A stretch of 64,000 nt of DNA from Endozoicomonas sp. OPT23. GTDB taxonomy: Bacteria > Pseudomonadota > Gammaproteobacteria > Pseudomonadales > Endozoicomonadaceae. The position numbers were made by a program, and so were the translations under genes. Location of the stretch: assembly GCF_009653635.1 (NCBI RefSeq), contig NZ_PPFD01000005.1, positions 310,001 to 374,000 of the forward strand. The letters run 5' to 3'. The notes beneath the pieces were generated by a model. The model worked only from the letters and a program-made list of their open reading frames with translations, made no database searches and had not been told where the DNA came from. Shown here piece by piece: positions 14,122 to 35,267 of the stretch; positions within the stretch are counted from its first letter, which is position 1, and each line of letters starts with the position of its first letter.

Positions 14122-14577
14122 TCAAAGGGAATTTGACCCATAGCTCATGCGGGCCGAAAACTCATCCAGCAAACTCTGCTCCTGTTTCTGCAGCTTTTTA
14201 TTTAACAGAATCTGATGACGACCCAACAGATGCTCGGCCGTTTTAACCTGTCGTTTTTCCTGCTGATAAGATTCCTGAACGGATTGACACTGAACCTCCT
14301 GCACTGCCACCTGATGCTGCTGATGGCGAACCGCGTGATCCACCCTTTCCACCATCATCTGGGCACTGTTCAGAGCCAGGCCACTGGCCTGCTTATTGGT
14401 ACTCCAGACATAGCCCTGCCGGTATTCTTCCAGCTGCTCTAATCGTTGTTCTTCCTGAACAAGACGACTCTGCTCAGCCACCAGAGCATCTTTCGCCTTA
14501 TCACACGTCATTTGACGAATAATGAGCAATCGATTCAGCTGTTTTTTTCTTTTCACACTCAGTCCCTGGAAAATCAA
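14122..14577 (-). CDS. fliJ: Flagellar export protein FliJ
   Basis: Coiled-coil stalk protein of the flagellar export ATPase (FliH-FliI-FliJ). It has about 150 residues, almost entirely charged heptad-type helix (CDKAKDALVAEQSRLVQEEQRLEQLEEY). It lies directly after fliI on the same strand, as in most flagellar operons. Start choice is uncertain: the longest frame begins with TTG at 14577, but a GTG at 14556 has a better-placed AGGGA ribosome binding site. It ends against convergent flgN; no fliK follows, unlike many gammaproteobacteria. Confidence 0.85.
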   Translation of the reverse strand: MIFQGLSVKRKKQLNRLLIIRQMTCDKAKDALVAEQSRLVQEEQRLEQLEEYRQGYVWSTNKQASGLALNSAQMMVERVDHAVRHQQHQVAVQEVQCQSVQESYQQEKRQVKTAEHLLGRHQILLNKKLQKQEQSLLDEFSARMSYGSNSL

Positions 14578-14580
14578 TCT

Positions 14581-15912
14581 CTACCAGAGGTTATGCAATT
14601 GCTGTACCGACTCGTCAAAATCAGAGGCTTCGAACATACCCTGAGTGAGCATATTCGACATGGATGGATAGAGTGAGAAAGCCTGATCAATTTCCGGGTC
14701 TGTTCCCTGACGATAGGCACCCAGAGTCAAAAGCTCTTTGTTTCGACTGTAAAGGGAAAGCGTTTTCCGGAACTTCAACGCCCTATCAAGATGCTGCTTA
14801 TCCACCACCTGCGGCATCACTCGGCTTACGGATTGTTCTACGTCGATAGCCGGATAATGACCTGACTCGGCCAGCTCACGGCTCAACACAAAGTGGCCGT
14901 CCAGAATCGCACGCGCAGCATCAGCAATGGGGTCCTGTTGATCATCACCTTCTGACAGCACGGTATAAAAAGCGGTCATACTGCCCTGCTGATTCTCACC
15001 ATTACCGGCTCTTTCTACCAATGCTGGCAGCATACTGAACACTGACGGCGGATAACCTTTGGTTGCCGGTGGCTCACCGACCGCTAACGCAATTTCTCGC
15101 TGCGCCTGGGCAAAACGGGTCAGGGAGTCCATCAATAACAAAACATCCTTACCCTGATCACGAAAATATTCGGCAATTCTGTGGCAAAGCCTTGAAGCCC
15201 TGAGTCGCATAACCGGCGAACTGTCAGCAGGAGCGGCTACGACCACTGCACGACGAAGACCTTCTTCACCGAGACTGTGTTCAATAAACTCCCGCACCTC
15301 ACGACCACGCTCACCGACAAGACCCACCACAGTGACTTCAGCACTGGTATAGCGGGTCATCATACCCAGCAGAACACTCTTACCCACACCACTGCCTGCG
15401 AACAAGCCTAATCGCTGCCCTTTACCAACAGTTAGCATGGCGTTGATAGCCCGTACCCCCACATTCAGAGGTTCCGAAATAGGCCGGCGTCGCAGCGGGT
15501 TAATTATTTCGCTTTCCAGCGGGGTAGACACTTTGGTGTCGATAGCGCCAAGGCCATCCAGTGGTTTGCCAGTGCCATCGATAACCCTTCCGAGCAGTTC
15601 GTCACCAACAGGAATACGACTGCCAGTACGGATAGGCATGACCCAGTCACCGGACCGGAGACTGGTTGGTGGTTCAAGGGGCATCAGAAACAATCGCCCG
15701 CCATCGAAGCCAACCACCTCTGCTTCCAGCTTTACGCCATTATCATCACCAATGAGACAGCGCTGCCCGGTGCTGAGCACACAGCCTCTGGCCTCAAGAC
15801 AGAGACCGTTTACCCGGTAAAGGCGACCATAAACCTGCCCAGCGGAAACACGACAGTTATTCTCTGCTTTCTTCAGCCGCTCACTGAGGTCCAATACGCC
15901 TTCACCTGTCAT
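14581..15912 (-). CDS. fliI: Flagellum-specific ATPase FliI
   Basis: ATPase that powers and unloads substrates for flagellar export at the cytoplasmic gate. It has 443 residues, the usual length. The Walker A motif [15 protein letters not shown], the [12 protein letters not shown] motif, the Walker B region [19 protein letters not shown] and the ATPase signature [15 protein letters not shown] are all intact. It is separated by only 9 bases from the upstream actin-like gene rather than from fliH, as would be usual. Confidence 0.98.
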
Positions 15913-15921
15913 AAGCGATCA

Positions 15922-16908
15922 TCAACCTACATTCTTGATGGTTTCGAGCTTATAGATGCCTCTTGAGATCGCCATATCAGGCTGCTCGGGAATCAGGGCA
16001 TCAACTCCCAGTTCAAGTGCAAGTTCTTCACCAATCAGGGAAGCACCACCACCGACAATCAGAACCTTGTCCAGCAGGGTTGGCGAGGAAACCATGGCTT
16101 CCAGTTCGCGCAGAATGGTTTTCAATACAGTACGGCTGGCTCGTTCAATCAGGTTACCGACTTCGATATTTTTCAGTCGGCCTGTTTTCAGTGCTTCTTC
16201 CGCCATGGCTCGGGGAATACGCTTGATACCAAACTCAGGCGCCGCCAGCTCGGAAAAACGTTCCGCAATGGTCAGCACACCGGTCTGAAAACTGTCGTAG
16301 GCTTCAATAGTGCCATTGGGCGTTACTACTGAGACGTCAGTTGTCGTCCCACCAATATCAACCACCAGTATTTTCATGGCTTCATCAAAGCCGGGTTTCA
16401 AAGCACCTGAATCGTCACGAATGGTATCGAACAGCGCCGGAATACCTTCCGGATAAACCTTGCAGTCGATGATCTCAGCCAGCTGATGACCTGCTGCCGA
16501 TTTGATACCACCGAGAATATTGCGTTTCTTACTGGAGATCAGTTTCTGGTTGATCGGGTCGCCTTTCACTTTCGAGAAAAACTGATTCATTGGCAGAGTT
16601 ACGGCGACCCGTACACTGCGACCGGCAAAACCACTCTGTCTCAGGGTTTCGTGCACCAGGGCACGATTCGCCTCGGACGTTTGATAGGATGGAATATTGG
16701 TGCGAATAATATCGTCAAAGTCACCATTGACGGTGTACTCACCACCTTCCTCGGTAAAATAGGCAGATTCGGCATAGCCGTTGATATCCACCTTGGCCTG
16801 CTCAGCAATACGGGAAGGCACAACACGAGTCAGCACCGCACCATTTTCAGCCCGGTAGGTAGCCTTGGCCTGGGCAGAACCCTCATCAATCACGACCAAT
16901 ACGGTCAT
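15922..16908 (-). CDS. ParM/StbA-family actin-like ATPase inside the flagellar operon
   Basis: Actin-fold ATPase of 328 residues, similar in length and motif order to plasmid-partition ParM. Visible are phosphate-1 VVIDEGSAQAK (residues 5-15), the segment RVAVTLPMNQF (100-110) and VYPEGIPALF (151-160) matching ParM's TLP and MPESIP regions, phosphate-2 VVDIGGTTTDVSVV (182-195, with the Asp and GGTT intact) and the adenosine motif VLIVGGGASLIG (282-293). All nucleotide-contacting motifs look functional. ParM forms filaments that push plasmids apart together with ParR and a centromere; no ParR-like gene is visible here. It has a strong ribosome binding site (CAGGAGAGAGAA) and lies between fliH and fliI in the same direction. 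A role in flagellar placement or export is speculative; a captured plasmid gene is the alternative. Confidence 0.88.
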   Translation of the reverse strand: MTVLVVIDEGSAQAKATYRAENGAVLTRVVPSRIAEQAKVDINGYAESAYFTEEGGEYTVNGDFDDIIRTNIPSYQTSEANRALVHETLRQSGFAGRSVRVAVTLPMNQFFSKVKGDPINQKLISSKKRNILGGIKSAAGHQLAEIIDCKVYPEGIPALFDTIRDDSGALKPGFDEAMKILVVDIGGTTTDVSVVTPNGTIEAYDSFQTGVLTIAERFSELAAPEFGIKRIPRAMAEEALKTGRLKNIEVGNLIERASRTVLKTILRELEAMVSSPTLLDKVLIVGGGASLIGEELALELGVDALIPEQPDMAISRGIYKLETIKNVG

Positions 16909-16928: not shown

Positions 16929-17008
16929 CTGAAACTGCAGCCGTTAATTATTCACAGGCAGTTTCAGTACAACTTATTGAATTCAATAAAAGACAGTTAT
17001 TACCTGTC
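16929..17008 (-). promoter_or_regulatory. Cluster of three inverted repeats between fliH and the actin-like gene
   Basis: In transcription order the gap holds: GACAG/CTGTC (16992-17008) just past the fliH stop, followed on the minus strand by TTTTATTG; a perfect 16-bp palindrome TTATTGAATTCAATAA (16974-16989); and a perfect 10-bp inverted repeat CTGAAACTGC/GCAGTTTCAG (16929-16938 and 16958-16967) shortly before the ribosome binding site. The first could be a weak terminator, and the others resemble protein-binding operators. No promoter was identified with confidence. Confidence 0.5.
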
Positions 17009-17015
17009 CTGGCCG

Positions 17016-18113
17016 TTACTGCCCAAGCCCACCCCAGGCTCCAAGACCTTCCGCAGCGGCTGCTGAAGGTTGAAACTGGAATGATTCTGTTTGGACGTCC
17101 GGTGGTTCTTTCGATGGCGCCGACGAATTTTTATGAGCCGCACCTGCATCGCCGTAAGAATCAGTTTCAGCAGACGAATGGTCAGGCTCAACAGGTGCAG
17201 GCATTTCGTTTCCGATTTGATAAAGCGGACTGAAATCAGACGGTTCTGTACGTTCCGGCCTATCCAGAAGACTGCCCCGAAATTGCTCAATACAATCCGT
17301 GAGACGACTTTCCAGAGTAGCGTAGACTTCACCCTGATCGGCCTCAACACGACAGCCGCCCGGTGTTAACTGATCATCGGAGTGGAACGACAGAGGAATC
17401 TTCTGATCCTGTCTCAAGGGTTCCAGCCAGTGCATATCAGAAGAATGAACGTAGACCCTGACTCGGCCAATATCATCAGAGTTAAGGAGAGACACCGCAT
17501 TTTGTACCAGCTCCAGAATATGTTCAGGTGCAAGCTTCAATTCACCCGCAACCACCTCAATCAATAACCGCTCAATCAACTCGGCTACTTCAACCATCTG
17601 CCGCTCTGATAACAAACGGGCACCGTCAGCCATAGACAGCTTCAACTGTTCGATAGCCTGAAGTTGATTCCGGATATCCTGCTGTCCCTGCTCAAGCCCT
17701 TGCTGCTGACCTTCCTCAATACCCTGCTGAAAGCCTTCTTCGTGCCCCTGAGCTTTTGCTTCCGTTCGCAACTCCTGCTCCAGCTCAGTGTGCCCTTCCA
17801 GCTGACCCTGCTGCAACCCTTTCTGATACATATCTTCCAGTTGCTGCTCGAGCATTTCAGGCGTCATGCCAATTTCTTCAACCAGCTTCTGCTTGAGTTG
17901 ATGACGACTGCCCCAGACGGTATAAACATCGTCCCTGACACTGCTGTCAGTATTCAGTGTCACCCCTTTCGAGAGGCCAAACAGAGGTTTCAAACCTTCA
18001 GGAGCAACGACTGGAGAATCTGCGTCTTTTGCTAACGCATCAGGAAACTGATGGGTCCGAGCCGATTCGGCAAGAACGGCTTCTGCTGATTTTGAGCCAG
18101 ACTCGATTGACAT
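17016..18113 (-). CDS. fliH: Flagellar assembly protein FliH, enlarged
   Basis: Regulator of the export ATPase FliI that also docks it to the C ring. It has 365 residues from the ATG at 18113, which directly follows the fliG stop; typical FliH has about 220-280. The central part (about 110-160) has the FliH-type Q/G-rich repeat helix with glycines four residues apart (QKGLQQGQLEGH, GFQQGIEEGQQQGLEQGQQ). The C-terminal FliI-binding-type domain continues to about residue 290 (ESRLTDCIEQFRGSLL). Beyond it is an unusual Pro/Ser/Ala-rich tail of about 75 residues ending LGAWGGLGQ. Identity is supported by the repeats and the fliG-fliH order. Confidence 0.85.
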   Translation of the reverse strand: MSIESGSKSAEAVLAESARTHQFPDALAKDADSPVVAPEGLKPLFGLSKGVTLNTDSSVRDDVYTVWGSRHQLKQKLVEEIGMTPEMLEQQLEDMYQKGLQQGQLEGHTELEQELRTEAKAQGHEEGFQQGIEEGQQQGLEQGQQDIRNQLQAIEQLKLSMADGARLLSERQMVEVAELIERLLIEVVAGELKLAPEHILELVQNAVSLLNSDDIGRVRVYVHSSDMHWLEPLRQDQKIPLSFHSDDQLTPGGCRVEADQGEVYATLESRLTDCIEQFRGSLLDRPERTEPSDFSPLYQIGNEMPAPVEPDHSSAETDSYGDAGAAHKNSSAPSKEPPDVQTESFQFQPSAAAAEGLGAWGGLGQ

Positions 18114-18114
18114 A

Positions 18115-19134
18115 TCACTCAACCATCTCGTCTGAACTACCGCCCAGTTCAATCTGACCTTCAGCGGCCAGCAAACGAGCCGTTTCAGTCAACTGTTCAC
18201 GCGCCGCCATAACCCGACTTTTACGAACGCCTTCACCGGTTTCAACTTCATCTTTAAGGGTTGCTGCAGCACGTTTACCCAGGCATGCGTAAATTTGCTC
18301 TTTACGTGCCAATGGCAAACCGCGCATCGCCATGGCGAGAATATCGTCATCCGCGTATTCAACAAGCACACGCAGTGACGCAATATCCAGCTCCATCACA
18401 TGTTCAAAGGTGAAGCGCAGCGCAGCAACCTGTTCGGCAAGACCTTCATCCGCCGTTTTCAAATTCTCGATCAGAGCCTCACCAACATCATGATCCATAT
18501 GATTCAGCACTTCAGCCAGCTGCTCAGCCCCTTTAATGGAATAGCTGCTGACTTCCTGTTCTGTCAGACCATCAATCAGACCGGCAACTGCTTCCAGAGA
18601 ACTGGAAGGAACCGTGGAAAGCGCCGCTAAACGTCGTGTAACGTCTGCCCGAACGGACTCAGACATCAGAGCCAGAACTTCAGCACTGCGCACCGGATCC
18701 AGGCAGGCCAGAGTAACCGCCTGCAGCTGCGGGTGCTCACTGCCTACCAACCGGGAAATTATTTTCGGATCCAGCATTAACAGCTTTTCGAGAGAGTCTG
18801 CGTATTCCACGCCTTCTGCCGTCTGCAGAAGTTCACGGGCCCGTTTTTCACCCAAAACTTTCTGCACTGCGCGATTCATCCCCGACTTATCGGTAAACAT
18901 TGGCGCTCGACTGGTTTCAGCCAGCAAACTGGACATAACGCCATCCAGCTCACTCTCAACTACGCCTTTGATGGTCGGCAAAATTTCTGCCAGCTCATTA
19001 ACTCGCTCCGCCGGCATTTTTTCCAGCACCGACGCTGCCAATTCTTCCCCCAGACCCAGCAAAGCGATAGCAGCACGCTCCAAACCTGAGCGACTCGCTG
19101 GATTCTGGTGATCAACCGGAACTGCAGCACTCAT
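18115..19134 (-). CDS. fliG: Flagellar motor switch protein FliG
   Basis: C-ring protein that transmits torque from the stators. It has 339 residues. Conserved stretches include AIALLGLGEELAASVLEKM, LLMLDPKIISRLVGSEHPQ, and the torque-helix region VLVEYADDDILAMAMRGLPLARKEQIYACLGKRAA, which carries the charged residues of FliG-C. The start overlaps the end of fliF by 4 bases, indicating translational coupling. Confidence 0.97.
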   Translation of the reverse strand: MSAAVPVDHQNPASRSGLERAAIALLGLGEELAASVLEKMPAERVNELAEILPTIKGVVESELDGVMSSLLAETSRAPMFTDKSGMNRAVQKVLGEKRARELLQTAEGVEYADSLEKLLMLDPKIISRLVGSEHPQLQAVTLACLDPVRSAEVLALMSESVRADVTRRLAALSTVPSSSLEAVAGLIDGLTEQEVSSYSIKGAEQLAEVLNHMDHDVGEALIENLKTADEGLAEQVAALRFTFEHVMELDIASLRVLVEYADDDILAMAMRGLPLARKEQIYACLGKRAAATLKDEVETGEGVRKSRVMAAREQLTETARLLAAEGQIELGGSSDEMVE

Positions 19135-20795
19135 TCCTCACCTTCCTTTATCCAGTTTTCCAGAACGTTAGCAACTTGCTCGGGCTGACTGGCCGCCATA
19201 TCCTGAACTGATTTCACTGGATCACCCTGAGGTTGGCCCATGATCTGCTGCGTACCTGCTGCAGAAGCAGCCATTGCAGTAGAAGACAGAGCACCAGTAG
19301 CAACACCTTCAGGAGTGGTCAATGCAGCAACCTCTCCAGCCGTACCAACAACAGCTCCAGACCCTGCTACCGATTGCGGCAAGGCAAGGGGCTGACCCAC
19401 CTTTAATTGCTTATTCTTTTTCCTGCGACGAACCATCATCATCAGAATGATAATAACCAGCAGAACACCGAGACCACCGAATCCCAGATAAATATACGGC
19501 AGGTAGTCGCGGTTGGTTCCCATGGCTTTTTCAATAATATTGCCCGTGTCTTCTTTTTCGACTTCGACAAAAGGAAGCGCCTGAACGGCTACCTGGTCAC
19601 CTCTGGCAGCATCAATACCGGCTGCATTGGCCAGAAGGCTGCGAATAGCGGTCAACATGGCTTCAGCCCCATCACCGTCGAGACCAGCTACACGACTATT
19701 AAGAATTACAGCGATATTAATATTTTCAAGACGATAGGCATCCTGACGGCGGTAAGAAACAGATCGATCCAGCTCATAATTGCGAACTCTGGAAAGACCT
19801 GTACCACCCTTGGAACCATTGTCAGCCTGCTCTCCTGATGGCTGATCGGGTACAGAACCGTTCATGGTTTCACTTCTCAGTGCGGCGCCTTCAGGATCAA
19901 ACGCTTCTACAGTATTTTCCTGAAAACTGAAGTCCACATCAGCATTAACAACCACCCGCAGGTTGCCAGCACCCACCAGCGGCTCGATCAGACGAGCCAT
20001 GTTCTGACGGTAGTCATTTTCAATCAGTTGAATATAACGACGCTGGCGGTCCAGTTCTTTTTCACCGGAACGGTCCATACCGTAAAGAGGGTTACTGTTC
20101 TGATCGAGAATGGATACTTTGTCAGCACTGAGCTGCGGCAGACTGCCTGCAACCAGATTGATGATGCCCTGCACCTGCTCGGTATCCAGCTCAACGCCGG
20201 AATACAGATCCACATAAACAGCAGCAGACGGAGCAACCTGATCCCGCATAAAGGCTGAACGCTTGGGCACTGCCAGATGAACTCTGGCTGAGCGCACCGG
20301 CCTCAGGCTCATGACTGTTTTGGAGAGCTCGCCCTCAAGACCACGAAGGTACTGGGCTTTTTCTACAAACTGGCTACGCCCCAGCTGGTTCTCGCCGGAG
20401 AGCAACTCGAGACCTTCCGGCATTTTTGCCGTAATGCCTGCTGTTGCCAATGTCATTCTGGCAGCGCGCTGACGACTTTCTGATACCAGAACCTGGCCGC
20501 TTTCAGGGTGCAGCTGATACGGAATATCATTAGTGCCCAGGGCTTCGATCACCGCTGCGGTGTCATAGAGTTCCTGACGACCGTAGAGTGGTTTAAGATC
20601 CCGGCTATCAGCCGTACTCCAGAGCCAGATGGTAGTAAATATCGTCAGCAGCAAGGCACCAGCGATTACGATTACGGTCAGGTTTTTTTGAACCAACTCA
20701 GTCAACGATACTTCGTTGAGATTGCGCACTTTCTGTCTGAATGTATTCAGCAGGCTGGGCAGTGGCGATGATTCCGCCCGATCAGAAGCCTTCAC
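19131..20795 (-). CDS. fliF: Flagellar MS-ring protein FliF
   Basis: Forms the MS ring in the inner membrane, the base on which FliG and the export gate assemble. It has 554 residues, the usual length. The N-terminal membrane segment (LTVIVIAGALLLTIFTTIWLW), the YscJ-like region (KPLYGRQELYDTAAVIEAL, ARVHLAVPKRSAFMRD) and the C-terminal membrane segment (YLPYIYLGFGGLGVLLVIIILMMMV) are all present. The C-terminal end (QVANVLENWIKEGEE) is the FliG-binding motif. It lies 14 bases after fliE. Confidence 0.97.
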   Translation of the reverse strand: MKASDRAESSPLPSLLNTFRQKVRNLNEVSLTELVQKNLTVIVIAGALLLTIFTTIWLWSTADSRDLKPLYGRQELYDTAAVIEALGTNDIPYQLHPESGQVLVSESRQRAARMTLATAGITAKMPEGLELLSGENQLGRSQFVEKAQYLRGLEGELSKTVMSLRPVRSARVHLAVPKRSAFMRDQVAPSAAVYVDLYSGVELDTEQVQGIINLVAGSLPQLSADKVSILDQNSNPLYGMDRSGEKELDRQRRYIQLIENDYRQNMARLIEPLVGAGNLRVVVNADVDFSFQENTVEAFDPEGAALRSETMNGSVPDQPSGEQADNGSKGGTGLSRVRNYELDRSVSYRRQDAYRLENINIAVILNSRVAGLDGDGAEAMLTAIRSLLANAAGIDAARGDQVAVQALPFVEVEKEDTGNIIEKAMGTNRDYLPYIYLGFGGLGVLLVIIILMMMVRRRKKNKQLKVGQPLALPQSVAGSGAVVGTAGEVAALTTPEGVATGALSSTAMAASAAGTQQIMGQPQGDPVKSVQDMAASQPEQVANVLENWIKEGEE

Positions 20796-20809: not shown

Positions 20810-21157
20810 TCAGACCGGCATGTTATAGACAGTTTCATAAGCTGAAACCACACGGTTTCTCACCTGAATAACCCCCTGAAAAGACAGGGAAGCCTTTTGG
20901 CTGGTAATCATGGTGCCGATCAAATCATCAGACAGACCCAACTCAAATTCTGTTCGCTGTTTGTCTGCATCCATCTGCATGGCATTCACCTGATCCAGCG
21001 CACCTTTCATCACACTGGCAAAATCACCGTTCACAGCATCGGTATTTTTGACCAGACCGGTCACATTAGGCTGAATTGCCTGAACAGCATCCATCTCGCC
21101 ACCCGGCAGAGTCAGTCGGTTCAGAGAAGGAGCAGATAAATTATTTAAATCCAGCAT
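20810..21157 (-). CDS. fliE: Flagellar hook-basal body protein FliE
   Basis: Small basal-body protein linking the MS ring to the rod. It has 115 residues with the conserved C-terminal helices (LIGTMITSQKASLSFQGVIQVRNRVVSAYETVYNMPV). It lies between the flrC-like regulator and fliF on the same strand. No clear sigma-54 site was recognised in the 84-base gap upstream. Confidence 0.95.
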   Translation of the reverse strand: MLDLNNLSAPSLNRLTLPGGEMDAVQAIQPNVTGLVKNTDAVNGDFASVMKGALDQVNAMQMDADKQRTEFELGLSDDLIGTMITSQKASLSFQGVIQVRNRVVSAYETVYNMPV

Positions 21158-31448: not shown

Positions 31449-34400
31449 ATGAACGGTTCAGGAACACAATATTTCATTTATCTAAAGTGCCTACTCGTCA
31501 CGTTCTGCCTTTCATTCTCCAGTCCAAATATAAAGTCACTTATATTTTCCATTAGTGATCTAAATGATTTAATTAACCATAGCCTTCTTACAAAAACCAA
31601 TTACGGATATGTCCTTAACCCTGTTATTCGGCAAGCTCTTGATCAGCCATTCCCCCTTAACCAACCTATTCAAGTTCCGTTAGGGCTCGATAATACAGCC
31701 GTCATCCAAAATCCTGAGCAACTCATTCAACAGTTGAGTCAGTTCTATCAACCGTCAACATTTCATATCAACCAACAACCTTATCCAGCTGTGGGCTACT
31801 TACCAGGTATTAATCATCCACAACAATTACAAGTGCCATATATACAGCCGGTTCAAGCTGGTCACCCACAATATTCACCGGCTTCTTATAACCAGGCTAT
31901 GACACCTGTACAGGCAAACTCAGCGCCAGTACCGCAAATATACTACCCTGCACCGGGCCCACAGCCGTTTCATGGCATTTACCCACTGCATCCATTTTTA
32001 CCTCCTGCACCGACAATCATATCGTCACAGCCACCAGATCCCGCTGCTTCAATGTCACTACCTGTTACATATATTCCAGAAACACAGGAAGTCGAACCTG
32101 CCCCCAATACAAATACAGATTCTGACTTAAATGAATTTCAAGAAACTGAAGTGGCCGACACTCAAACTATAGGTTCAGTCGACGAAGTTACAGCTCAGGT
32201 TACTGACATATCAGACCAGAAACCGGCAGAAACGCAACAGAATGTAGAACCTGATACAGAAGACGCAAATGAAGATGTAACCGATTCATCCAATACGGAT
32301 GTACAGGAAATTGAAAGCGTAGAAACACCTGAGGATACGTTTGAGGCTTCACAGAAAATAATAGAGCCACTGACTGAGTCCGTACCCGAGAAGCAGAAAA
32401 ACAGTGACGAGACTGAAGAAATAGAAATTAACCCAGAACAAAAACAACCAGAAGATACTAACGACCTTCCAGTGAAAAAACTGATGCCCATCATTCTTCC
32501 AGAGTCTGTATCGCCAAATGCTAACCCACCATTTGTTAACAGCAATCCGGGCGCACCTCCTCCCGCTAAGCTTCCACCCATTGATACCAGCGGTGACATA
32601 TCACCTATAGAAGAACCAGACCTGGTACCAAAAATAAATAACTACAAAAAACTATCTTACTCAGTGGCAGCCAGATTTAAGCAGCTGATTGATAAAGCTC
32701 AAGCAAAGTTCGTAAGAGTCAAACGATCACTGACCAAGTGGACATCATTTTATTTTTATCAAACCAGTGCTTACTTAACAGCAGCTTCTGGCAAGCTGAT
32801 TTCGAAGTTCACAGGGAGCCATAAGCCCAGGAAATACGTCATCAAATCTAAAAGGCCGCATACAACGACACCTTCATATTTATGGCTTACCCCTTTTAAG
32901 CTATTCCAATTCAGTAAAAGAAGCACACCTATTATTATCACTGCAGCTGCCACTGGTGCTTTTGCGTACATAATGTATCCAGAGTCAGAAAAGCAATCTG
33001 TTCCTTTACAGAGAAAACCTTCCAAACGGAAAATCAAAAAAACCGGGAGATCTCAATCCACGGAAGATGAAATCAACGCCATACTCTCGAATCAACTGAT
33101 TCATGCATTCTCCTCAGCAGGGCATTTACTGAAAAAATATGGTGCTTTTCCTGTTACTGCTGTTTATCAGTTCAATGAATCAATCTTGAATATCCTATCC
33201 GGGCCTCTTCAGGTATCAGAAAATCAGAGTCTATTCTTTGGACCTGTAGGCTACCCGGTGACAGATTCTCAATTTCAAAACACACCCGTTTTCGATGCTC
33301 CTCTCTCTGAATCACTGATCGAAGAAACAGTCGAGCGTTTAATAAATTCAGTATCAGCGTCACAACTCAGGCTAGCAATAACAGGCCCCCTGGACCCAGT
33401 CAGCCAAGTATTAATGTGGTGCGGTATTCCCTATGGAAATCACGCTAAGCAATTTCATAAGCAATGCATTAGCTGGCTGGCCACTGAGTTGGAGAAACAG
33501 CATAACTGGTATCAGAATGATCTTCATTTCCACTATTTCATGTTGCAAACAGGTATGTATCAGTTTTTTCCTGAACGGACAAAGTTGATGGTTATACCGA
33601 GGTTCAGTCTTATAAATGGTCTGGAGAAAGTTACTCAGGGTTATCAACCGAGAGTTCTGGAAATATCATCAGCAGAGAAATACACCTATAACCTTCCTTT
33701 TCCAACCGACACTAACCCTATCCCAATAGCCATAGAACCCACCTGGCTTGGTGATTCACCCTTCAGTATTTATAAATTAAGAGAGTTTCAGGATAAACAA
33801 CATATTTTCTCAAGCAACCTGACACCTGGCCAACCTATCGATGGTATATATTCAGATACGGTTTACAGTTTTACGGTACAAAAAGATACCGACCTGCTAG
33901 CAGCCATCGAAACACAAGTCATCGACTCACATACACCACAACCGCAAGCCAGACTACCCCACAGTCGTATATTCGAGAAACTACTGCAAGCCAAGCCCAA
34001 CACCCACCTTTCACACACCCGCCCCTTCAGGTTTGATAACGACTCAAGTACCGGTAAAAGCACTCGAGTTGCTGATGCTATACGATATTATTTAAATACT
34101 GATCAATACAACAAGGTCAATCAACTTCAAGAGTTAGCTGTTAGTCCCTGGTTTCCAAAGGGAGAACTTCCCTACACGCTACTTGCCAAAGCAACAGGCC
34201 TCTCCCTCGATAGCTTCAAGGATATAGATTCACTCTCAGTTAATGCCAGAATAAAAAAATTTGACCAACTGTTCGAATGCAGCTTTATGCCTGACTGCTC
34301 TGATAAATCACATCCTCAAATGAGAATTCTGGATAATATTCCGCCGACTGCAGACGCCTTATCAGGAGGTAAAGAGTCAGACTTCGGTCAACCAGAAATG

Positions 34401-35267
34401 CTTTCCAGCAAAGCTCTTTGCCAGAAAATCAGTTTCAACAACTTGCGAGATGCCTGCCTCAGTGTGAATAACGATCTTCTTAAAGTCACCGAAGCTCTCA
34501 GTCTTAACTCTCAACTGAGCATAGACACCCACATTCCTATTTATAAATACGAATGCACATACGATCAGGAGGAAGCAGGGACATGCTACTACCGCTTAAA
34601 TAGAAAAATTCCATTTTCAGAAGTATCTGATGAACGACTGATTACCCACCTTAACCTGAAGGCGATACTTACTGAACAAAATCAACATCAGGAAAACCCT
34701 CTTTTATATCTCAGTCATATCGGAATACTCGAAGCCAGTGAATTTCCCAATGGTTCTCCCGATTATCTCCAGCTCTATAAACAGCTGGAGATAGATAGAA
34801 ATTTTGACCAGAACTATGGCTGCTTCCATAAATATCTACATCAGTACGAATGGTGCTCGGGGCAAACTAGCTGCCTCTGGACTGTTCCAACTATAAAATC
34901 CGATAACAGGGAGAATCGACTCGAACTCCTGGATCAGGTAGTAGAAACAGGTCAGGGAATCATCACCGGTCGATGGGCTGAAGCCAGTAAAAAAGGTGGA
35001 ATGCTGGTAAACGGTGGAAAAGAAAACACAGGGATTTTATATAGAGATATTCACAACACAGGCTGGATAGAAACTTATGATGCAAAGGACGAAAAAACCG
35101 GTTATTTGTTGCTTGCTTATTACAACAACAAACCATTTCTAATCACTCAGTCTTCAAACAATAACCCTCATCATACGTTCAAAGCCTTATTTATGATTCG
35201 AGGTACTGAAAGGATCAACAGCCCCTGTAACCAGCCAGATCAGAGTATTATAGTTTACCCTGACTGA
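31449..35267 (+). CDS. Large orphan protein, 1272 residues, proline-rich and acidic N-terminal half
   Basis: No family recognised. Visible architecture: a hydrophobic N-terminal segment (IYLKCLLVTFCLSF, possible signal or anchor); a Gln/Pro/Tyr-rich stretch (about 60-210) with many PxxP-type repeats; a long acidic Glu/Asp/Thr-rich linker (about 210-360); a Pro-rich patch; a basic segment; a candidate membrane helix (TPIIITAAATGAFAYIMYP, about residue 500); then a folded-looking C-terminal half of about 750 residues with scattered Cys. The modular, low-complexity N-terminal half resembles secreted host-interaction proteins, but that is inference from composition only. It stands alone between the flagellar genes and the meta-cleavage cluster, with no obvious operon partner. 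Confidence 0.75.
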   Translation: MNGSGTQYFIYLKCLLVTFCLSFSSPNIKSLIFSISDLNDLINHSLLTKTNYGYVLNPVIRQALDQPFPLNQPIQVPLGLDNTAVIQNPEQLIQQLSQFYQPSTFHINQQPYPAVGYLPGINHPQQLQVPYIQPVQAGHPQYSPASYNQAMTPVQANSAPVPQIYYPAPGPQPFHGIYPLHPFLPPAPTIISSQPPDPAASMSLPVTYIPETQEVEPAPNTNTDSDLNEFQETEVADTQTIGSVDEVTAQVTDISDQKPAETQQNVEPDTEDANEDVTDSSNTDVQEIESVETPEDTFEASQKIIEPLTESVPEKQKNSDETEEIEINPEQKQPEDTNDLPVKKLMPIILPESVSPNANPPFVNSNPGAPPPAKLPPIDTSGDISPIEEPDLVPKINNYKKLSYSVAARFKQLIDKAQAKFVRVKRSLTKWTSFYFYQTSAYLTAASGKLISKFTGSHKPRKYVIKSKRPHTTTPSYLWLTPFKLFQFSKRSTPIIITAAATGAFAYIMYPESEKQSVPLQRKPSKRKIKKTGRSQSTEDEINAILSNQLIHAFSSAGHLLKKYGAFPVTAVYQFNESILNILSGPLQVSENQSLFFGPVGYPVTDSQFQNTPVFDAPLSESLIEETVERLINSVSASQLRLAITGPLDPVSQVLMWCGIPYGNHAKQFHKQCISWLATELEKQHNWYQNDLHFHYFMLQTGMYQFFPERTKLMVIPRFSLINGLEKVTQGYQPRVLEISSAEKYTYNLPFPTDTNPIPIAIEPTWLGDSPFSIYKLREFQDKQHIFSSNLTPGQPIDGIYSDTVYSFTVQKDTDLLAAIETQVIDSHTPQPQARLPHSRIFEKLLQAKPNTHLSHTRPFRFDNDSSTGKSTRVADAIRYYLNTDQYNKVNQLQELAVSPWFPKGELPYTLLAKATGLSLDSFKDIDSLSVNARIKKFDQLFECSFMPDCSDKSHPQMRILDNIPPTADALSGGKESDFGQPEMLSSKALCQKISFNNLRDACLSVNNDLLKVTEALSLNSQLSIDTHIPIYKYECTYDQEEAGTCYYRLNRKIPFSEVSDERLITHLNLKAILTEQNQHQENPLLYLSHIGILEASEFPNGSPDYLQLYKQLEIDRNFDQNYGCFHKYLHQYEWCSGQTSCLWTVPTIKSDNRENRLELLDQVVETGQGIITGRWAEASKKGGMLVNGGKENTGILYRDIHNTGWIETYDAKDEKTGYLLLAYYNNKPFLITQSSNNNPHHTFKALFMIRGTERINSPCNQPDQSIIVYPD

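Follow-up and report, generated by a model that had tools for sequence, protein, structure and literature searches.

Within a 64,000-nucleotide stretch of the Endozoicomonas sp. OPT23 genome (contig NZ_PPFD01000005.1, positions 310,001 to 374,000; hereafter, the window), a gene for an actin-like protein of the ParM/StbA type is located between fliH and fliI of the flagellar export operon. Our best reading is that it is a plasmid-type ParM that was acquired in the distant past and has since been domesticated as a component dedicated to that operon; we refer to its product as flagellar ParM. The features of the locus, all on the reverse strand, are the following.

14122..14577 (-), fliJ, identified by Pfam
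14581..15912 (-), fliI, the export ATPase, identified by Pfam
15922..16908 (-), parM-like gene (flagellar ParM), an actin-like ATPase of 328 amino acids with an ATG start and no internal stop
16929..16967 (-), stem-loop with 10-bp perfect arms in the fliH-parM gap
17016..18152 (-), fliH, unusually long, 378 amino acids from the listed TTG (the true start is uncertain), with the Pfam FliH domain (E=1.8e-15) at residues 163-286
17019..17270 (-), C-terminal tail of FliH, a candidate ParM dock, approximately residues 295-378, past the FliH domain, made of a low-complexity linker and an end motif
17019..17045 (-), LGAWGGLGQ motif at the extreme C-terminus of FliH, with one variable position
18115..19134 (-), fliG, identified by Pfam
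19131..20795 (-), fliF, named from its translation and position
20810..21157 (-), fliE, named from its translation and position

The parM gene is co-directional with fliG and fliH, located upstream, and with fliI and fliJ, located downstream. In the window, it is preceded by AGGAGAG and separated from fliH by 107 bases and from fliI by 9 bases. Scans for sigma-70 promoters and terminators gave no more matches than were found in shuffled sequences.

The presence of an intact ParM/StbA-type gene at positions 15922-16908 (-), between fliH and fliI, had been proposed in an initial annotation made from the sequence, and it is confirmed here. Flagellar ParM matches the Pfam families StbA_N (PF06406; E=1.3e-20, 74.5 bits against a curated cut-off of 24.6) and MreB-like_C (E=2.9e-12), its residues 2-324 match PHROG 691, "partition protein" (E=3.3e-34), and its best sequence match in the PDB is the ParM chain 4a62 (E=1e-17). 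It reaches none of the curated cut-offs of NCBIfam, the best being the plasmid ParM equivalog NF010498 (31.9 bits against 417), and we therefore regard it as a divergent member of the family. A defence function was rejected, since no PADLOC family matched the protein at an E-value of 0.01.

The phosphate-1 (IDEGSAQAK), phosphate-2 (DIGGTTTD) and adenosine (VGGGA) motifs of the window copy are intact. Active-site residues were paired by alignment with the residues of the R1 plasmid ParM treated in PMC3794156; by our reading of that alignment, the glutamate E154 corresponds to R1 E148. Residues D8, S11, Q76, E154, D184, G187-T189 and G286-G288 are kept in all four flagellar ParMs identified in this work, while the position of R1 Asn-30 is occupied by Ser. 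An AlphaFold2 model built from 21 sequences (predicted local distance difference test, pLDDT, 89.7; an earlier model from four sequences was poor, with a pLDDT of 48) shows an actin-like fold that is closest to ParM and matches the R1 ParM structure 4A61.

We compared 37 genomes of the bacterial family, in which G000 denotes the window genome. Flagellar ParM was found in four of them (G000, G005, G008 and G010), belonging to two genera, with its motifs intact in all four; a fifth match, in G032, has a marginal E-value (4.5e-4), and a second ParM, 35% identical, is encoded on an 87-kb contig of G005. The four genomes share the gene order fliE-F-G-H-parM-I, and since the arrangement recurs in three genomes besides that of the window, the fliH-parM-fliI order is not a chance occurrence. 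Thus, the conservation of this order, raised as a question in the initial annotation, was observed; the 9-base spacing before fliI, to which the same annotation drew attention, holds in the window but is not conserved, as the TAA of parM and the ATG of fliI overlap by one base in G010 and the gap is 181 bases in G008. The fliH-parM gap is predicted to fold in the window (z -2.84), G005 (z -2.47) and G008 (z -2.51), the value for G010 (z -0.54) not being significant. In all 26 ParM-less loci retrieved (22 from the family and four from the order), the FliI match lies within approximately 210 bases of the FliH match.

Wider profile searches (E 1e-10 for the order and class genomes, E 1e-15 for the phylum genomes) returned further genomes with ParM matches, namely 8 of 390 in the order, 6 of 369 in the class and 4 of 398 in the phylum, but their flanks of up to 1.5 kb contained no FliH or FliI match. 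Rare carriers could escape such a survey, since these samples overlap and represent an even draw from larger groups, G005, G008 and G010 were absent from the order sample, and at most five candidates were scored per genome.

The identity of ParM to the window copy (approximately 84-87%) is higher than that of FliI (70-77%), FliF (42%), FliG (32-56%) and FliH (28-38%). Between lineages, the nonsynonymous divergence (dN) of parM is approximately 0.10-0.11 and its synonymous divergence (dS) 1.1-2.1 (NG86), with dN/dS ratios of 0.05-0.09. The low dN/dS and the near-saturated silent sites imply that parM has long been under purifying selection. Identity at four-fold sites is 42-51% for parM and 35-42% for fliI, and since parM is less diverged than fliI at silent sites when G010 is compared, some exchange between lineages may have taken place. 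That the gene is present in only 4 of the 37 genomes might suggest a recent integration or a non-functional remnant, an explanation contradicted by these substitution rates and by the motifs intact in every copy, and one we regard as extremely improbable. A gene confined to a single strain, with decayed motifs in relatives, is accordingly not what we found.

Regarding its origin, a tree of 31 ParMs places the four flagellar ParMs in a single clade (98/96), whose nearest row, with moderate support (85/75) and a possible long-branch attraction flagged by the tool, is a lone chromosomal ParM (G055:C52); plasmid ParMs are placed around this row on long branches. The phosphate-2 motif of this G055 protein (L047:4212-5231) is altered to GGHSVD; its open reading frame (ORF) list has no obvious parR, and a gene not far from it is presumably hisG. 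Among the 30 plasmid relatives of the window ParM listed, from at least 5000 matching records, identity is 29.6-34.9%. A phage origin was rejected: 17 phage records matched, the eight listed being 26-29% identical, and no relative turned up when viral contigs were scanned for two short peptide patterns.

The R1 plasmid ParM belongs to the type II partition system ParMRC. By contrast, flagellar ParM is chromosomal, resides in a flagellar operon and lacks both an adjacent ParR and consistent parC repeats. In all four loci, the gene that follows parM is fliI, whereas six plasmid ParMs and the second ParM of G005 (G005:C3) are each directly followed by an ORF of 126-183 amino acids that is parR-like by position. 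A neighboring parR/parC pair indicative of recent plasmid integration was therefore not found, and together with the near-saturated dS and low dN/dS, the lack of an adjacent parR led us to reject such an integration. The window, G005 and G008 have no tandem repeat array in the fliH-parM gap. In G010, three imperfect 17-bp tandem copies (71-76% identical to the reference copy) lie in this gap, at L040:11890-11940; their location just upstream of parM is reminiscent of parC iterons.

Alternatively, the gene could be a plasmid partition gene that was captured, has a role unrelated to flagella, such as segregating DNA, and is retained here for the sake of its expression. The plasmid and chromosomal ParMs that are its nearest relatives, the chromosomal ParMR pairs already known (PMC12270681) and the three repeats of G010 would fit this explanation, which must be set against the missing parR, the lack, at the other three loci, of direct repeats arrayed in the fliH-parM gap, the retention of the same operon slot in two genera and the co-occurring FliH tail described below. 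We consider it quite improbable. The passive retention of a captured plasmid gene, one of the options of the initial annotation, is likewise less supported than a flagellar role given the conserved order, the strong purifying selection and the FliH tail.

The tail of FliH that co-occurs with ParM is a new finding of the present analysis. In the four ParM-bearing genomes, FliH extends 69-113 residues past the FliH domain, end motif included: a PxD(F/I)xP patch comes first, followed by a linker enriched in the residues P, S, E, D, A and Q, and LGAWG(G/S/D)LGQ lies at the stop codon. An LGAWGxLGQ ending was found in none of the 23 readable FliHs from the 26 ParM-less loci; the tails of the other three (L023, L028 and L036) were unreadable because of a broken frame, and 19 further FliH matches had no locus. 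At the DNA level, the GAWGxLGQ pattern occurs once per ParM genome, at the end of fliH, and in none of nine ParM-less family genomes, six of which have a FliH match. Among the 390 order genomes, it was found in three: in fliH of the window and as two phenylalanine variants in short ORFs, at loci with no FliH match, which we attribute to chance since a backward control pattern also matched in two genomes. G000, G010 and G005 share eight of the last ten FliH residues, and none of 100,000 shuffles yielded more than three; as the linkers are by now so divergent that they can hardly be aligned, the end motif appears to be under selection.

In Salmonella, FliH binds FliN and FlhA via the N-terminal residues Trp-7 and Trp-10 (PMC9114704), and the tail might be this tryptophan motif relocated and unlinked to ParM, which would then act by another route. 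The FliH of G005 fits, as the N-terminal half that follows its likely start has no tryptophan. However, the same lack is seen in tail-less FliHs of ParM-less genomes (G006, G016, G019, G021, G025 and G026), some N-terminal-half tryptophans are retained in the ParM-bearing G000, G008 and G010, and the co-occurrence with ParM is left unexplained. The tryptophan survey thus weakens this alternative, which we consider unlikely.

In R1, the site on ParM that binds the last 17 residues of ParR lies between subdomains IA and IIA, and their binding stabilizes the filament form of ParM (PMC3794156). Since ParR holds ParM by a short C-terminal peptide, the best reading of the locus is a domesticated ParM with FliH standing in for ParR. 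Flagellar ParM would bind ATP and polymerize, and the LGAWGxLGQ end of FliH, carried on a flexible linker, would dock on it like the C-terminal peptide of ParR; FliH would thus replace ParR, and the flagellar base would replace parC. FliH dimerizes, and 12 FliH molecules surround the FliI hexamer (PMC9114704). A FliH12-FliI6 ring could present up to 12 tails, much as a ParR-parC ring offers many ParR tails to a single end of the filament. Nucleation or anchoring of the ParM filament could take place at flagellar bases or FliH2-FliI carriers, and the filament might position these bases or carriers, distribute them when the cell divides, or collect FliH-FliI at the base. A flagellum-linked function of some kind is, in our judgment, highly probable, and the FliH tail probably docks on ParM, to judge from the analogy with ParR. 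The full explanation, a domesticated flagellar ParM with FliH as a ParR-like adaptor, seems to us evenly balanced between right and wrong. That a ParM filament moves flagellar parts or puts them in place is a tentative proposal, and we are equally cautious about an actin-like filament system dedicated to the flagellum, in which FliH is the ParR-like adaptor and basal bodies or export rings are the cargo instead of DNA. The interpretation given in the initial annotation is partly supported, in that a flagellar role is favored; the specific roles it put forward, namely positioning, partition and FliI regulation, are not separable by sequence.

Several points weigh against the proposal that FliH is the adaptor of a flagellar ParM. 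Binding and filament formation by flagellar ParM are predictions. A FliH match is present in 26 family genomes, of which 22 lack ParM; found in 4 of 37 genomes and not in most relatives' flagellar operons, parM is not a core flagellar gene. The independent ParM lineages number only about two (the G000/G005/G008 trio and G010). In a FliI tree of 30 rows, the four ParM genomes fall in a seven-genome clade (97/95) with the ParM-less G026, G022 and G027, and their own monophyly is weak (56/81); a FliG tree of 27 rows joins G010, flagged as a long branch, to the ParM-less G022/G027 (95/94), a placement that requires two gains or losses of parM. Either one gain followed by losses or the transfer of the fliH-parM-fliI stretch would fit this history. 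Because the 3′ end of fliH adjoins parM, a real caveat is that the tail and parM may share one recombination tract and be co-inherited by linkage, although linkage accounts for their shared presence and not for a fixed tail end next to a diverged linker. The FliH motif has no letter-level match to the C-termini of plasmid ParR-like proteins, one of which, from Pantoea, has AWGG within its linker. In G008, an insert of approximately 6 kb splits fliI from fliJ. Finally, the position of R1 L163, by residue count in the alignment, is Ala or Gly in flagellar ParMs; L163 was mutated to Ala in work on R1 polymerization and structure (PMC3794156).

This last substitution would also suit a non-filamentous, nucleotide-dependent switch, in which ParM would be sequestered or timed by the FliH tail, or would itself control FliH-FliI release or export, in the manner of arcadin-2 and crenactin. 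The position of parM next to fliI, with the one-base overlap of G010, is consistent with such a switch, as is the depolymerization of crenactin filaments by the C-terminus of arcadin-2 (PMC5173319). Nevertheless, the fold, the active site and the nearest solved relatives are those of filament-forming ParMs, and the L163 position also varies among plasmid ParMs. We consider the switch rather unlikely.

With respect to known systems, crenactin-arcadin-2 offers a model for the FliH tail, in that a short, tryptophan-bearing C-terminal peptide of the partner binds the groove of the actin-like protein; unlike the proposed FliH-ParM pair, it is an archaeal cytoskeleton whose peptide depolymerizes filaments (PMC5173319). 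The chromosomal cParMRs of Desulfitobacterium and Clostridium are parM-parR cassettes, unlike flagellar ParM, and the available part of the paper on them does not mention flagella (PMC12270681). The entry title of CorM-CorR of Anabaena (PDB 9RMI) does not mention flagella. A genome paper on the bacterial family makes no mention of ParM, and searches of a collection of openly licensed PMC papers found no description of a ParM in a flagellar operon, which does not imply its absence from print.

FlhF is a flagellar placement GTPase of the signal-recognition type. It resembles the role proposed for ParM as a factor that positions the flagellum and differs from ParM in not being an actin. FlhF exceeded its curated cut-off in none of the 37 family genomes (5 of 8 other order genomes, used as calibration, did). 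ParM as a substitute for FlhF was rejected, because FlhF is below the cut-off in family genomes with and without ParM and its absence does not single out the ParM-bearing ones.

If the proposed adaptor role of FliH holds, a DNA-segregating actin has been re-aimed at a protein machine, a tractable case of an actin-like motor acquiring a new cargo, and a possible answer to flagellar placement and inheritance in genomes without an FlhF above the curated cut-off. The carriers are some marine host-associated bacteria, in which a DNA-segregation engine may be rewired for the flagellum, and the short FliH motif makes the adaptor idea directly testable.

Other observations concern the surrounding sequences. 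In many gammaproteobacteria, flhF-flhG follow flhA. In the window, flhA is directly followed by an ORF of 1272 amino acids (31449-35267), and this ORF and two other long ones (40063-43518 and 43736-46204, 1151 and 822 amino acids) have no Pfam match. The G008 insert (L042:11300-17500) contains three similar tandem ORFs of 422-580 amino acids. Two FliH-like matches apiece in nine family genomes (G016, G022, G024, G026, G027, G028, G029, G030 and G031) point to a possible second flagellar or type III system there; the four ParM genomes have one match each.
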